Source of the DNA: a virus
Virus record (IMG/VR): IMGVR_UViG_3300032562_000145
Coordinates: 1-27,665 of that record
Strand: one strand, 5' to 3'
Length of the DNA: 27,665 bases
In this document: positions 3,562 to 23,621 of the stretch, in pieces
Layout: the number at the start of each line of letters is the position of its first letter
Position numbering within the stretch: the stretch's first letter is position 1
Program-made: the position numbers and the translations under genes
Notes under the pieces: model-generated
Seen by the model: the letters and a program-made list of their open reading frames with translations, nothing else
Database searches by the model: none
What the model was told of the DNA's origin: nothing

Positions 3562-3777
3562 ATGTCTTCACGCCAAAACTGGGGGAAACAAAAACCCTTG
3601 CAAACAAAGGCAAGTGCTAAAAGCAAGTGCCAATTCCCTGTAGGGCGGAGACAACCACTGGCTGGTCTGGTACGACCCGAACGTACAACCACTCGATTAA
3701 CAGTCGAGCGCACTGCCATTGTGCTACAGACCAATGGGGATGACGCCACCACACTCGTTGTGGCCGGGGCGGAATGA
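3562..3777 (+). CDS. Doubtful 71-residue basic frame
   Basis: The frame would encode a basic, low-complexity N-terminal half (SRQNWGKQKPLQTKASAKSK) and a hydrophobic end. It lacks a Shine-Dalgarno; the ATG is preceded by an inverted repeat (ACTTGAC/GTCAAGT). It ends two bases before the promoter of the next operon. The composition differs from the confident genes around it, and I treat it as possible at best. Confidence 0.22.
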   Translation: MSSRQNWGKQKPLQTKASAKSKCQFPVGRRQPLAGLVRPERTTTRLTVERTAIVLQTNGDDATTLVVAGAE

Positions 3778-3778
3778 A

Positions 3779-3807
3779 TTGACTATGTTACTACACCCCT
3801 GTACACT
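3779..3807 (+). promoter_or_regulatory. Sigma70-like promoter with conserved spacer and leader
   Basis: -35 TTGACT (3779-3784), 17-base spacer ending ACTACACCCCTG, -10 TACACT (3802-3807). The leader ends GACTAGGGAGGTCAAG (3825-3840) directly before the ATG. Spacer and leader are nearly the same as those before the minus-strand genes at 12291 and 10933. Confidence 0.8.
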
Positions 3808-3840
3808 TGTTCTGTGGACTGTTTGACTAGGGAGGTCAAG

Positions 3841-4173
3841 ATGACAGTAGAAACCATGGAGCGCACCGACGTCAGTTGGTTCGACATCCTGCTAAACGCA
3901 GAGACGAAGGAATACGTCCCTGCACGACTCATCCGTACTCAGTACGGGCTCTGTTGGGCACTGGTCGACGGGGAAAACAAGTTCACGGGGAAGTTCATCA
4001 GTGCTTTCCCGGCTCGCAAGACAACGATGTTGAAGAAGGGATACATCGAAGCCGAGGGGCTGTACAAGTTCTACTGGAACAAAAAGAAGGCAACCGTAAA
4101 CCTCCCAATGGGCGAGCGAGAAAAAGGATGCGACGACAACACACCACCACTAAAGATTCGGGAGAACGACTAA
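3841..4173 (+). CDS. Hypothetical 110-residue protein
   Basis: This is the first gene of a two-gene operon with its own strong promoter and a GGGAGG Shine-Dalgarno that fixes the ATG. The middle looks like a small beta-rich fold (EYVPARLIRTQYGLCWALVDG, then a lysine-rich KKGYIEAEGLYKFYWNKKKA), and the tail is charged and polar. The basic patch could bind nucleic acid, but no known domain is recognised. It ends on a TAATG overlap with the next gene. It sits between two non-coding stretches that carry inverted repeats, which may control it. Confidence 0.75.
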   Translation: MTVETMERTDVSWFDILLNAETKEYVPARLIRTQYGLCWALVDGENKFTGKFISAFPARKTTMLKKGYIEAEGLYKFYWNKKKATVNLPMGEREKGCDDNTPPLKIREND

Positions 4174-13323: not shown

Positions 13324-13434
13324 ATGATGACGAGCCCAATCCACCACATACTGTTCAATTCAGAACTTGTTGGCATCGGCCTCATCGCTGGCTTTTTTAT
13401 TGCCATGCTCATCTCCTTCTTCCGCAAGAACTAA
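13324..13434 (+). CDS. 36-residue membrane peptide before the terminase
   Basis: A short frame with two ATGs in a row and an AGGAG Shine-Dalgarno four bases before the first. Residues 15-33 form a hydrophobic span (LVGIGLIAGFFIAMLISFF), followed by a basic RKN end, so it is a single-span membrane peptide. Its TAA shares one base with the ATG of the large terminase, whose own ribosome binding site is weak. Translation of the terminase therefore probably depends on this small gene. Its separate function, if any, is unknown. Confidence 0.62.
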   Translation: MMTSPIHHILFNSELVGIGLIAGFFIAMLISFFRKN

Positions 13435-15470
13435 TGAACCCACTCATTAAAAAACTTGCCGCTGCTACGCCGGAGCAGAGAAACGCAATTCTTTCCAAAC
13501 TTTCGACGGAAGAATTAACATCCGTTTTCAAGCAACTCGAATCCATCGAGAACGCTCCGATGCGCCACTGGTATTGCACCCGTGCGACGTGCGATGGCAA
13601 CCCTCACGCAGGTTTCCATTGGTGCGAACACCCAGTCGACGGTAAGCACACCCCGTTCTGCAAACACGCAAGAACACCACAGCGACCTCCGCACAGCGAC
13701 CCAGATGACCCATGGCTTGTTTGGTTCTTCTCGGGCGGACGTGGCACGGGTAAGGCTCTTGCTCTTGATACGCCTATTCCCACGCCATTTGGTTGGGCAA
13801 AGATGGGTGAACTGAAAGAAGGGGACGTTGTATTTGACGAGCGGGGGCGTATGTGCAACGTCACTGCCATTTACGACGTAATGCCAGAGCGTGCGTACCG
13901 ATTGACCTTCTCTGACGGAAGCGAAATCGTGGCGTGCGACGAACACCAGTGGGCGACACTCACCGCCCAAGAACGAAAGCAACTAAATCGCAAGGGGCTT
14001 CCAATCCCCGACGACTGGGCTAACAAAGCGCCAATCACTACCGCCGACATTGTGGCGACGTTGAAGTATGGCAAGCGTGGCGACACCAACCACGCCATTC
14101 CCGTTTCCAAACCGTTGGAACTTCCCAACGCCAACCTTCCTATTGACCCGTACATTTTGGGGGTGTGGCTTGGCGACGGTTCATCTGGCGGTGCAGACAT
14201 AACTTGTCATGACGACGACATTGCGCACTATCGCCAGAAGTTTGACGGGGTTGGTGAAATCTTTGGAGAGGGTCGCTACCGAGACGCCGACAAGCCCACC
14301 GCAACGTATCGTTTTGGAAACAAGCCCGAACAACTTAATGCTTTGGGGCAAATGACAGCCAATGGCTCAATGCACTCAAAACTACGAGAACTTGGTTTGA
14401 TAAATAACAAGCACGTTCCCGTTGTGTACTTCCGTGGCTCCGTAAGCCAGCGCATTTCACTGCTTCATGGCTTGATGGACACGGACGGGTACATTGACGA
14501 GCGTGGTATGGCAGAGTTCACGTCTACAAAGCGTGTTCTTGCCGAAGCCGTAGTTGAACTTGCTCGCTCACTTGGTCAAAAGCCAGTCATGTCAGTTGGG
14601 CGCTCAACCTTGTATGGCAAGGACTGTGGCGAAAAGTATCGTGTGCACTGGCGACCCACCATTGAAGTGGTTTCTTTGCCTCGTAAGTTGGAGCGACAGA
14701 AGCCCTACGGCGCACAGTCAATGCGCAATCACCACCTCATGGTCGTATCCGCCACAGAGGAACTGCTCCAACCTATGCGCTGCATTACGGTGGACAGTCC
14801 TAACTCCATGTACCTTGCGGGCGAGGCAATGATACCGACCCACAACACCCGAGCCGGGGCTGAGTGGGTTTTGGACTTGGTTTGGAATCAAGGGTACAAG
14901 CGCATCGCCCTCGTTGGTCGAACACCAGCGGACGTTCGAGACGTAATGATTTACGGAGACTCGGGAATTATGTCCGTGTCCGACCCAAACCCAAGGCCGA
15001 TTCACGAGCCAACCAAGAGACGACTGATTTGGGAAAACGGCGCTCAGGCTTTCACGTACTCGGCTGCTGCGCCGAGTCAGTTGCGTGGTCCTCAGCACGA
15101 CGCTGCTTGGTGCGATGAGTTAGCGGCGTGGACAGACGCACCAAAGGGTGACTCCCTCGATACGAGTTGGAACAACTTGATGCTTGGTCTCCGTTTGGGA
15201 ACTGACCCGAAGTGCCTTGTCACCACGACACCAAAGCGTGTCAAATTGGTTCGACAAGTTATGGAGCGACGCACAACCGTAATCACTAACGGTACGACGT
15301 ATGAAAACCTCGACAACCTTGCTCCGTCGTTTAAAGACCAGGTTCTAACGTCCTACGCAGGAACAAGAATCGGACGACAGGAGTTGGATGGCGTCGTCCT
15401 CTCCGACGTCGAAGGCGCTCTATGGTCTCTGGAAATGATTGATTCTCTTCGTGGGGAGTTGGTCGAATGA
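13434..15470 (+). CDS. Large terminase ATPase part, interrupted by an intein
   Basis: The 678-residue precursor is the ATP-driven DNA packaging motor, minus its nuclease. Residues 1-107 hold a Cys/His-rich N-terminal region (WYCTRATCDGNPHAGFHWC) and the first part of Walker A, GGRGTGK (101-107). An intein fills 108-471. The ATPase resumes with TRAGAEW (472-478), giving GGRGTGK-TRAGAEW after splicing. The Walker B acid pair is Asp561-Glu562 (AAWCDELAAW), and the coupling motif is LVTTTPKR (595-602). The spliced product would have 314 residues. The nuclease domain is missing and is encoded by the overlapping next gene. Without splicing the ATP site is broken. Confidence 0.92.
   Translation: MNPLIKKLAAATPEQRNAILSKLSTEELTSVFKQLESIENAPMRHWYCTRATCDGNPHAGFHWCEHPVDGKHTPFCKHARTPQRPPHSDPDDPWLVWFFSGGRGTGKALALDTPIPTPFGWAKMGELKEGDVVFDERGRMCNVTAIYDVMPERAYRLTFSDGSEIVACDEHQWATLTAQERKQLNRKGLPIPDDWANKAPITTADIVATLKYGKRGDTNHAIPVSKPLELPNANLPIDPYILGVWLGDGSSGGADITCHDDDIAHYRQKFDGVGEIFGEGRYRDADKPTATYRFGNKPEQLNALGQMTANGSMHSKLRELGLINNKHVPVVYFRGSVSQRISLLHGLMDTDGYIDERGMAEFTSTKRVLAEAVVELARSLGQKPVMSVGRSTLYGKDCGEKYRVHWRPTIEVVSLPRKLERQKPYGAQSMRNHHLMVVSATEELLQPMRCITVDSPNSMYLAGEAMIPTHNTRAGAEWVLDLVWNQGYKRIALVGRTPADVRDVMIYGDSGIMSVSDPNPRPIHEPTKRRLIWENGAQAFTYSAAAPSQLRGPQHDAAWCDELAAWTDAPKGDSLDTSWNNLMLGLRLGTDPKCLVTTTPKRVKLVRQVMERRTTVITNGTTYENLDNLAPSFKDQVLTSYAGTRIGRQELDGVVLSDVEGALWSLEMIDSLRGELVE
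13755..14846 (+). other. Class 3 intein with LAGLIDADG homing endonuclease
   Basis: This 364-residue insertion begins with Ala108 instead of Cys or Ser, followed by LALDTPIPTPFGW. Its block B has DEHQW (Trp173), block F has MRCITVDSPN with Cys450, and block G has MIPTHN with Thr469, His470 and Asn471, followed by Thr472 as +1 residue. Trp, Cys and Thr at these places are the hallmark of class 3 inteins, in which the block F cysteine starts splicing. LGVWLGDGS (242-250) and LLHGLMDTDGY (343-353) are the two LAGLIDADG motifs of a homing endonuclease. All splice residues are present, so it is probably active. Confidence 0.9.
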
Positions 15471-16105
15471 TTACCGTAAAGGCAGAAGAATTTTTGAGAA
15501 TTGTTGTTGGCGTCGACCCCGCAATTACTTCGGGAGAAGATGCGGACGAAACGGGAATCGTTGTCGTCGCAAGCGGACCGCACCAGCCGGATACTTGCTC
15601 TATTGAACACTGCACTCTTCACGCCTATGTTTTGGAAGATGCGACACTGCCAAAGGGCTCAAAGGCAAGTCCCGAAAAATGGGGACGACGTGTAGTCGAT
15701 GCGTTCGACGAATGGAACGCTGGAATCGTTGTCGTTGAAGGTAACGCTGGGCGTGAACTTCTTCGAAGCGTTCTTCATAACATCAGGCCGACCATGCCCG
15801 TGGACATCCCAAATGCGAAGTACAACAAAGCGAGTCGAGCGGAGCCGGTCGTGTCTTTGTATGAGCAGGGTCGTGTTCACCACATTGGAGACCCGGCGAA
15901 GTTTGCTCTTTTGGAAGACCAAATGACAACGTGGGTTCCAACTGGTTCACGTGGCCGGGGCAAGTCCTCGCCAGACCGAATGGACGCCCTGGTTTGGGCA
16001 ATAAGCGAGTTGGACATTAACACCGGGGTGCGCCGTCGTCGGTGGGAAGTCGAAGACGGCATCGCCCCATTGGGGTTTGGCCAGTCAAACCACTGGCAAA
16101 TTTAA
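15467..16105 (+). CDS. Large terminase nuclease domain (separate gene)
   Basis: The 212-residue product matches the C-terminal RNase H-like nuclease of phage large terminases, which cuts the genome concatemer. IVVGVDPAITSGEDADETG at about residues 12-30 gives the first catalytic acid (Asp17). VVVEGNAGREL gives Glu91, and SPDRMDALVWAISEL gives the last pair, Asp170 and Asp173. It begins on an ATGA overlap with the ATPase gene, with a GGGGAG Shine-Dalgarno, so the two are coupled. In most phages these domains form one chain. Here the break falls in the linker, so both halves should fold and may reassemble. Confidence 0.88.
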   Translation: MITVKAEEFLRIVVGVDPAITSGEDADETGIVVVASGPHQPDTCSIEHCTLHAYVLEDATLPKGSKASPEKWGRRVVDAFDEWNAGIVVVEGNAGRELLRSVLHNIRPTMPVDIPNAKYNKASRAEPVVSLYEQGRVHHIGDPAKFALLEDQMTTWVPTGSRGRGKSSPDRMDALVWAISELDINTGVRRRRWEVEDGIAPLGFGQSNHWQI

Positions 16106-18404: not shown

Positions 18405-19139
18405 TTACGCAATCTGCTTCAGGCTTTCGCCAATCTCTCGGGTCTCAACAATTTCGCCATTGCGAACTCGGATGTAGGTGTACGGTTCAAGGTCTTCGTA
18501 CCAAAGAATGTCAACACCAGCCTTGTCGCAAGCACGAAGAAGAAGGTCTTCCGTCGAAGCAAAGAACAAGGAGCCCTTCTCCGTCGAGCCGACCGTCAAA
18601 GGTGAGCCGTCGCATCGTGCAAGGTGCAAGTCACGCTTTTCACGAGCATCAAGCCAAGCCAGCGCAGCACGTCCCTGCAACGAACGCAATACGTCGGCTG
18701 GGTGATGACGAGTTAAGTTCAAAAGCGCAAAAGCAGCCTCACTATCAACCTGCGCCTGGCGCTCTTCGTTTAGGTACTCAAAGATGTTGTCGTCGTTGTT
18801 TAGAACGCCGTTGTGGACGCCGATAATCTTCCCTGAAACGATTGGGTGGTTGTTTAGATTGTCATCGGGTGAGCCCTTGGTTGCCCATCGGGTGTGAAGG
18901 ATTGCTCGCTTCGTGTTCGTGGACATCTTCGTTAGATACTGGTCGAAAAGAGACGCTGGCACTGGAGCCTTGCTAACAGCAATGGTTGAGCGCTTACTCT
19001 TTTCGGTTGGAGCCACGACCCATGATGCGCCAGTGGCGTCTTTGCCACGAGATGCAATCTCTTTTAGCAAGCAACTTGAAACCTTACGTGCATTAATCTT
19101 CTCGTTTGGGCTTAGGCAAAATCCTGCAATTCCACACAT
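18405..19139 (-). CDS. Class II glutamine amidotransferase
   Basis: The 244-residue protein frees ammonia from glutamine for transfer to another substrate. The start is the ATG that places cysteine second (MCGIAGF), as required for the N-terminal nucleophile once Met is removed; an AAGGAG Shine-Dalgarno supports it, and longer starts would block the enzyme. Other active-site elements are SRGKDATG (30-37), HTRWATKG (82-89), VHNG (108-111) and DSEA (132-135). It has no synthetase domain, so an ammonia-using partner is expected; the amidoligase gene 10 bases upstream is the obvious candidate. Confidence 0.92.
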   Translation of the reverse strand: MCGIAGFCLSPNEKINARKVSSCLLKEIASRGKDATGASWVVAPTEKSKRSTIAVSKAPVPASLFDQYLTKMSTNTKRAILHTRWATKGSPDDNLNNHPIVSGKIIGVHNGVLNNDDNIFEYLNEERQAQVDSEAAFALLNLTRHHPADVLRSLQGRAALAWLDAREKRDLHLARCDGSPLTVGSTEKGSLFFASTEDLLLRACDKAGVDILWYEDLEPYTYIRVRNGEIVETREIGESLKQIA

Positions 19140-19149
19140 GTGGTTCTCC

Positions 19150-20214
19150 TTAGTTTCGAGTGCTGGCAAGTCGCTCGGCACGGTTGGTTAGATACTGCTT
19201 GACGGTGGGCTTGATGTCGAGGCTGTCCAGGAGGCTGGACAGGTTTCCAAGTTCTGTTCGGGCGTCATCGAGGGTGACAGCCTTTTCGACCATCGCAAGA
19301 ATGAACTGAATCCAAGATGTCAACTTTTCGGGGCTGAGCGTTCCCTGGTGCTGGCGGAACTCCAAGGTTCCGTACTTGGAATAGGACTGGATATTGATGA
19401 CACGGTACCGTGAGCCAGTGTTGAAGACATTCTTCTGTTGCTTGGTCTGCTCCACGTCTGTCATGCGTCGGATTAAACCCCACGTGTGGTCTTCCGTACG
19501 AATGGCTTGCTGGGTGTACGGAGCGCAGTACTGGTTGCTGTGACGACTGCTGGCAACCAGAGTGTTGATGCTCTTCTGGTTAGCAATGTAGAAGTCAATC
19601 ACCTTCATGAGGTCGTAGCCAGTGAGGTTGTCCATGCCAACGTGAACGTGGATTCCGCAAGTGCGGTCAACTGAAGCGCCAGCGTCCATCAGAGCCTTGA
19701 TTGCAGTGGCCATCTTTTCCAATCCTTCGACGCCCTGAAGAACAGGGGAGACCAATTCAAGTCCGTTTCGAACACCAGTGCCACGCTTTGTAACGGAAGC
19801 ATCCGTCACAATCTTCCAAGCAGAGGTCACTTCGTGGGTGTACCCACGGAACTCAACGTCGATGCCGACGTTACGCAATGCGCCAACTGCGACGGTGGGC
19901 GAGATTCCAAAGAACTCAGCCTCGACGCCGAATGTGCGCTGTGAGGGAATTTCCGAAAACCCTTCGGGGCGGACGCCCTCGTTCTCGGGAACACCACCGT
20001 TGCTCTCCAGCCGACGCTTAGCAGCACGTACCGCCTCTGCTGCGGACTGAGGGCGTGGGACGCCGTTGGGCGTGAAGCCGAGTTGACGAGCGATGTCGAT
20101 GTATGACATGCCACCATTGCGCAGACGAAGTGCTTCGTCCTGGCGAGCGATGGTTGCGGAGCGGTCACGATTGATTGATGACCTGTTGTACTGCACTGGT
20201 CGGTTACTTGGCAT
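19150..20214 (-). CDS. Amidoligase with N-terminal HTH
   Basis: The 354-residue protein has a helix-turn-helix-like N-terminus (RLRNGGMSYIDIARQLGF, about 30-47) and an amidoligase domain of the glutamine-synthetase-like COOH-NH2 ligase group. Key parts are FGVEAEFFG (95-103), WKIVTDAS (133-140), GLELVSPVLQG (151-161), CGIHVHVG (186-193) and GTLEFRQHQGT near residue 300. The acids, histidines and arginine fit an ATP and metal site. Such enzymes join an amine or ammonia to a carboxylate of a peptide or metabolite. The substrate is unknown. It has its own promoter and is followed by the amidotransferase gene. Confidence 0.88.
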   Translation of the reverse strand: MPSNRPVQYNRSSINRDRSATIARQDEALRLRNGGMSYIDIARQLGFTPNGVPRPQSAAEAVRAAKRRLESNGGVPENEGVRPEGFSEIPSQRTFGVEAEFFGISPTVAVGALRNVGIDVEFRGYTHEVTSAWKIVTDASVTKRGTGVRNGLELVSPVLQGVEGLEKMATAIKALMDAGASVDRTCGIHVHVGMDNLTGYDLMKVIDFYIANQKSINTLVASSRHSNQYCAPYTQQAIRTEDHTWGLIRRMTDVEQTKQQKNVFNTGSRYRVINIQSYSKYGTLEFRQHQGTLSPEKLTSWIQFILAMVEKAVTLDDARTELGNLSSLLDSLDIKPTVKQYLTNRAERLASTRN

Positions 20215-22894: not shown

Positions 22895-23188
22895 ATGTCA
22901 ATGAGCGACAGCCCCGTGCCAATCAAAAGACAGTTCTTTCTATCACAAAAAGAGAGCAGAAGGCATGCGGATAAAGTGAGCGCCTACATGGTTGAGCGAT
23001 TCCAAAACTCCAAGGTAATCGCACGAATCACCCCGGTCGGTTTATTGAAGACAACCATTTCCGAGCATCAAGTAACTGCTTTTGCAATAAGCCAGGGACT
23101 GAAGACAAGTGGCACCTGGGAAACAAAAAAGAGTCGACTACACAAATCTATTGACGCAGTTGAAAATGAGGGGTATCGCTTTGAATAA
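22895..23188 (+). CDS. Hypothetical 97-residue basic protein
   Basis: The gene begins with two in-frame ATGs two codons apart, neither with a clear Shine-Dalgarno. The product is basic (SQKESRRHADKVSAYMVERF) with a C-terminal half that looks like a small winged or helical domain (TISEHQVTAFAISQGLKTSG, then TKKSRLHKSIDAVENEGYRFE). DNA binding is possible. It overlaps the WhiB gene by eight bases, so the two may act together. Confidence 0.68.
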   Translation: MSMSDSPVPIKRQFFLSQKESRRHADKVSAYMVERFQNSKVIARITPVGLLKTTISEHQVTAFAISQGLKTSGTWETKKSRLHKSIDAVENEGYRFE

Positions 23189-23621
23189 GTACTGGACTGA
23201 CGAGGCAGAGTGCAAGGACATGCCGAAGAACGACTTCTTCCCCTTAAAGGGAGAGAAGCAGAATCAGAGCGCAATTGACGCTTGCGCAAGATGCACGGTC
23301 AGAGAAGAGTGCGCTAACTGGGCGGTACTTCATGAGGTGCATGGCTACTGGGGAGGACTGACTGCCAAGGAGCGAGCAAAGATTCGAGTTCAGATGAGCA
23401 TCTACCCAGACATCCCCGAAAGCAGGTACGGACGCTCATCGCTAATCGTGAAGCGACGCCCACGACCACCGTGTGGAACGCAAGCGGGATACAAGAGCCA
23501 TCGCCTCTACAACGAGATTGTCATCCCCCTCAGAGATGGCGGGTGCGGTTGCATGGAAGCAAACTCGGAAAAAGTAAAAATGTACCAAAAGAACTGGTTG
23601 GCCAAGAAAGCGCAGAAGTAA
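23181..23621 (+). CDS. WhiB-family iron-sulfur regulator with extra C-terminal Cys domain
   Basis: The 146-residue product carries the four WhiB cysteines (Cys11, Cys35, Cys38, Cys44), which hold a 4Fe-4S cluster, and GYWGGLTAKER (55-65), the turn and basic region of the family. WhiB proteins bind the primary sigma factor and DNA, and phage versions can alter host transcription. Beyond residue 95 it has an added part with PPCGTQAGYKSH (97-108) and CGC (123-125), a pattern seen in small actinophage proteins and likely to bind zinc. I chose a TTG start after GAGGGG; an ATG five codons upstream lacks a Shine-Dalgarno. Confidence 0.9.
   Translation: MNKYWTDEAECKDMPKNDFFPLKGEKQNQSAIDACARCTVREECANWAVLHEVHGYWGGLTAKERAKIRVQMSIYPDIPESRYGRSSLIVKRRPRPPCGTQAGYKSHRLYNEIVIPLRDGGCGCMEANSEKVKMYQKNWLAKKAQK

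Follow-up and report, generated by a model that had tools for sequence, protein, structure and literature searches.

The packaging ATPase gene of the virus record IMGVR_UViG_3300032562_000145 is interrupted within its Walker A codons, which raises the questions of what the inserted sequence is, whether it would splice, and whether it controls packaging or serves only itself. The whole 27.7 kb record (positions 1–27,665) was analyzed and is referred to here as the window. The ORF at 13434–15470 (+) encodes 678 aa with no interruption, and the insert occupies precursor residues 108–471, from A1 to N364. It splits Walker A exactly between Lys and Thr (GGRGTGK/TRAGAEW, where the slash marks the insertion point), leaving exteins of 107 and 207 aa, or 314 aa together; the Thr+1 of the C-extein doubles as the Walker A Thr. 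The initial annotation had placed an insertion in the Walker A loop at 13755–14846, and the ORF, the alignment and the empty sites in relatives agree with it in coordinates, residues and lengths. The features of the locus are the following.

13434–15470, + strand: packaging ATPase gene (Terminase_6N) with an in-frame intein, 678-aa precursor (PF03237, 2.9e-19; terminase PHROGs)
13434–13754, + strand: N-extein, 107 aa, its last residues being Walker A GGRGTGK (gap-free alignment to positions 3680–4000 of relative L001, 80% identity)
13755–14846, + strand: class 3 intein with LAGLIDADG homing endonuclease, 364 aa, assigned from sequence, PDB matches and an AlphaFold model (absent in 80/80 fetched relatives of the gene)
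13755–13757, + strand: intein position A:1, Ala, without an N-terminal nucleophile (alignment; Ala in 66/102 rows)
13935–13952, + strand: block B with C61 (B:7), H64 (B:10) and W66 (B:12, the W of WCT; DEHQW) (alignment, residue counts)
14148–14180, + strand: LAGLIDADG motif 1 (PYILGVWLGDG, D141) (alignment; D in 100/102)
14460–14498, + strand: LAGLIDADG motif 2 (LLHGLMDTDGYID, D244) (PF14528, 9.1e-5; D244 in 102/102)
14781–14783, + strand: block F:4 Cys343 (C450 of the precursor), predicted class 3 initiating nucleophile (C in 102/102 rows)
14838–14849, + strand: block G with T362 (G:5), H363 and N364, plus the C-extein Thr+1 (alignment, residue counts)
14847–15467, + strand: C-extein, 207 aa, remainder of the ATPase domain (96% identity to L001; PF03237 match)
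15467–16105, + strand: separate gene for the large-terminase RNase H nuclease (PF17289, 8.2e-10; PHROG for the terminase C-terminal part; alignment)

Searching viral contigs with the C-extein gave 198 relatives, and the top 80 of them were fetched for comparison. The intein was present in none of these 80, and all of them carried an empty GK/T(S) site with an uninterrupted Walker A; therefore, the ends of the insert are exact and the insertion is sporadic. The nearest relative, L001, reads GGRGTGK/TRAGAEW at the empty site, and its identity to the window is 96% for the C-extein, 80% for the N-extein and 87% for the nuclease. Comparison with L001 revealed no sharp rise in DNA identity near the insertion site that could indicate co-conversion or a donor; identity at third codon positions is only about 45–75% there, and the pair is too diverged at these positions to give a clear signature. 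A foreign composition of the intein was also considered and rejected, with G+C of 53.4% and GC3 of 57% against 54.5% and 57% in the exteins, and its codon usage is no outlier relative to the surroundings. A recent transfer from a source of different base composition is therefore not visible.

The insert has the features of an intein: it is in frame, it contains blocks A, B, F and G, it ends with Asn before Thr+1, and empty alleles exist elsewhere; its sequence also matches terminase PHROGs that themselves contain inteins. In phmmer searches of the PDB, the best solved relative was the class 3 DnaB1 intein of M. smegmatis (6bs8, E = 5.5e-20), with an alignment that spans both splicing halves and matches W, C and THN, and the M. 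chimaera DnaB-1 class 3 intein also matched (E = 1.5e-19). Since the match at 5.5e-20 coincides with an empty site in 80/80 fetched relatives, the insert is not a chance resemblance. Class 3 inteins are defined by the WCT triplet at B:12, F:4 and G:5 (PMC5222942, PMC5050341). Among 102 homologous inteins, the window's own included, W is conserved in 100/102 and both C and T in 102/102; the terminal Asn is present in 102/102, and the +1 residue is T or S with a single exception. The window intein keeps W66, C343, T362, H363, N364 and Thr+1, and there is no Cys, Ser or Thr at position 1 (Ala1). The marks of class 3 that had been read from the letters, Ala1 together with Trp, Cys and Thr in blocks B, F and G, were confirmed in this alignment, and alongside known class 3 inteins the conserved splice residues are all retained. 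One departure is found in block B, which reads CxxH (C61) instead of the usual DxxH (D in 68/102 rows, C in 12/102). DxxH is common in class 3 but does not define it, and membership of the class stands; the Cys at B:7 could alter splicing efficiency. Sequence, profile, predicted structure and the empty-site comparison thus support the assignment to class 3.

Both LAGLIDADG motifs proposed in the initial annotation are present with their catalytic Asp kept (D141 and D244), as is typical of LAGLIDADG homing endonucleases, and DNA cleavage is predicted from them. With the intein alone as query, PF14528 scored above its cut-off, and PF05204 (3.9e-4) fell just below its own. An AlphaFold model of the intein, built from a 13-sequence alignment (pLDDT 84.3), matched PI-SceI along its length (Z 28.7 over 330 residues), the splicing domain of M. 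smegmatis DnaB1 6bs8 (Z 19.7, rmsd 1.4, 124 residues, 42% identity), and the folds of I-Tsp061I and I-DmoI. The predicted architecture is a HINT splicing fold with a LAGLIDADG endonuclease. This architecture is shared with PI-SceI, the yeast VMA intein, which is nevertheless class 1 (Cys1) and larger (454 aa). The DnaB-1 inteins of M. smegmatis, M. leprae and M. chimaera (6bs8, 6own, 6rix) likewise have WCT, Ala1, a THN end, a P-loop insertion and the same HINT fold; however, they are mini-inteins without an endonuclease and reside in the replicative helicase, whereas the window intein carries an endonuclease and resides in a terminase.

Homologous inteins were found in 751 records of a public phage collection, in terminases, DnaB-like helicases and RecB/Cas4-like nucleases, so that the earlier picture of class 3 inteins, as a small group seen chiefly in the terminases and helicases of phages, is out of date. 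Of 101 relatives of the intein, drawn from IMG/VR and genome contigs, 82 are inserted immediately C-terminal to the Walker A Gly-Lys, with Thr, Ser or Cys as the next extein residue, and their hosts include ATPases of several unrelated kinds. Among annotated phage terminases, the insertion is found at GK/T in, for example, Clavibacter phage CMP1 (GVGK/T) and Acidovorax phage ACF1, and at GK/S in Stenotrophomonas phage SOVA965 and Gordonia phage YungMoney; the inteins of Gaia and JonJames lie elsewhere in TerL. The insertion between the P-loop Lys and Thr of TerL corresponds to the published TerL1-a site (PMC5050341), and the same paper gives the C-motif (site f) as the only insertion site for mycobacteriophage TerL6. 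The TerL1-a inteins of CMP1 and ACF1 are full-length relatives of the window intein with 35–38% identity, and differ from it in that the window intein sits in a Terminase_6-type ATPase whose nuclease has a gene to itself. The inteins of the Microcystis phage Mic1 TerL (PMC7156551) also interrupt a phage terminase ATPase domain; in contrast to the window, they have Cys boundaries, by which mark they are not class 3, a second one lies in the nuclease domain, and ATPase and nuclease form one protein. No close relative of the window intein was found, the best identity being about 42–43% over the full length, and a search of bacterial genomes with the intein returned one relative only (L184). In one relative (L086, 4001–5234), the frame of a related terminase Walker A intein (GK/T) is broken by a frameshift located after the N-terminal splicing half and before the endonuclease, through either decay or sequencing error.

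We conclude that the insert is almost certainly a phage class 3 intein, equipped with a LAGLIDADG endonuclease of its own, that entered the gene of a packaging ATPase at the Walker A codons; the steps that follow are those predicted from its residues and model. Cys343 (F:4), and not residue 1, would attack the K107–A108 bond to give the branched intermediate at block F that characterizes class 3 chemistry. The N-extein would then be transferred to Thr+1, and cyclization of Asn364 would release the intein, leaving a 314-aa ATPase in which the GGRGTGKT P-loop is whole again. The endonuclease, freed or still fused, would cleave the P-loop codons of alleles that lack the intein, and the insert could spread in this way by homing during co-infection. 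Because of the insertion site and of what is known from P-loop inteins studied elsewhere (precedent RadA, cited in PMC6195587), it is sound to expect that ATP binding, and with it ATPase activity, would depend on splicing.

Other readings of the insert were weighed against this one. That it belongs to class 1 or class 2 and merely resembles class 3 could be argued from the fact that class 2 inteins likewise lack a nucleophile at residue 1. This is very improbable given the complete WCT triplet and the top matches, which are biochemically proven class 3 inteins, and class 1 in particular is opposed by the absence of Cys, Ser or Thr at position 1. It is similarly hard to credit that the insert is a degenerate intein that no longer splices and has inactivated the gene. 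B:7 does depart from the commonest residue, and the frameshift in L086 means that decay or sequencing error happens in the family, but the 1092-base frame is fully open, the catalytic residues are all intact, the predicted fold is confident, and both the exteins and the nuclease gene are undamaged.

A different possibility concerns the role of the intein: splicing could be conditional, holding back the mature packaging ATPase until the cell provides a redox, metal or DNA signal, and thereby acting as the packaging checkpoint that had been suggested for this locus. Control of packaging by an intein has already been proposed for phage Mic1 (PMC7156551), the insertion site of the window intein would make ATPase activity depend on splicing, and in a split terminase, such as the one described below, late splicing would idle the motor and not the nuclease. 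In addition, the closest characterized relative, DnaBi1 of M. smegmatis, is reported to be inhibited by H2O2 through a Cys48–Cys118 disulfide (PMC6195587), and the window intein has a block B Cys (C61) near the active center. However, DnaBi1 combines Cys48 with DxxH, whereas the window intein has Ala at the position of this redox-switch partner and CxxH in block B. An alternative switch in which C61 replaces Cys48 was considered, since a Cys at B:7 and the Cys48 equivalent never occurred together in 94 representatives (0/54 versus 12/40, raw p about 1e-5), but this exclusivity is not significant when the tree is considered, there being too few independent changes and no backing from independent pairs. 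Moreover, the intein is kept in none of the 80 fetched relatives of the gene and so gives no sign of long-term retention. The checkpoint found no specific support here, and we regard conditional splicing as unlikely. Most likely, the intein is not a regulator but a selfish element, tolerated by virtue of its splicing.

The host of the intein had been annotated as the large terminase. It is indeed a terminase packaging ATPase, with a Terminase_6 ATPase domain (PF03237, 2.9e-19) that includes Walker A, but only the ATPase half is present: the RNase H-like nuclease is not in the same polypeptide and has its own gene (15467–16105; PF17289, 8.2e-10), whose start overlaps the ATPase stop as ATGA and whose residues D17, E91 and D170 are invariant in the alignment. 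Judged from these sequences, the extein protein is the ATPase half of a split large terminase. Its 25 nearest relatives (L001–L023, L025 and L073) are split in the same way; in the tree, they group with the window as one clade of environmental phages, set apart from the fused forms by a supported branch (SH-aLRT 96), and in more distant relatives, ATPase and nuclease are fused. The spacing between the two genes in the split clade takes values of −8, −4, −1 and +85 to about +1005 bases, with entire ORFs intervening in L019 (4612–5217, 201 aa) and L018 (3335–3793, 152 aa). This variable offset and the intervening ORFs argue against sequencing error and against a programmed frameshift joining ATPase and nuclease, a reading that we reject.

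Separately encoded terminase domains are familiar to annotators in some phages. According to a review of jumbo phages, the RNase H domain that accompanies the large subunit is universal in tailed phages (PMC7824862). Our literature search on split large terminases and on this lineage, with most subscription journals outside its range, found no matching paper. The split is a less expected feature than the intein, and we report it as a lead rather than as the finding itself. We consider it unlikely that this is an environmental phage lineage with a permanently divided terminase in which the intein ties the motor, and not the cutter, to splicing, so that the speed of splicing could govern when the motor acts during packaging or how much of it there is relative to the nuclease.

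Other genes of the window encode a small terminase subunit, a WhiB-like regulator (23109–23621), an endolysin, an amidoligase and a glutamine amidotransferase. From this gene content, including the WhiB-like regulator, we infer that this tailed phage probably has an actinobacterial host. The glutamine amidotransferase and amidoligase genes adjoin each other (18405–19181 and 19150–20214, −) as an auxiliary pair, and in L001, L002 and L023 the terminase is followed downstream by DNA resembling this region.

The window intein is a fairly ordinary further example of a kind known from hundreds of phages, and what it adds is a full-length class 3 intein with an endonuclease in a Terminase_6-type ATPase. 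The frequency of P-loop insertion among its relatives, in unrelated ATPases, underlines the strong tie of class 3 inteins to P-loops. The more useful lead comes from the separation of ATPase and nuclease into two genes, as a natural two-part large terminase would allow the two activities to be studied separately.
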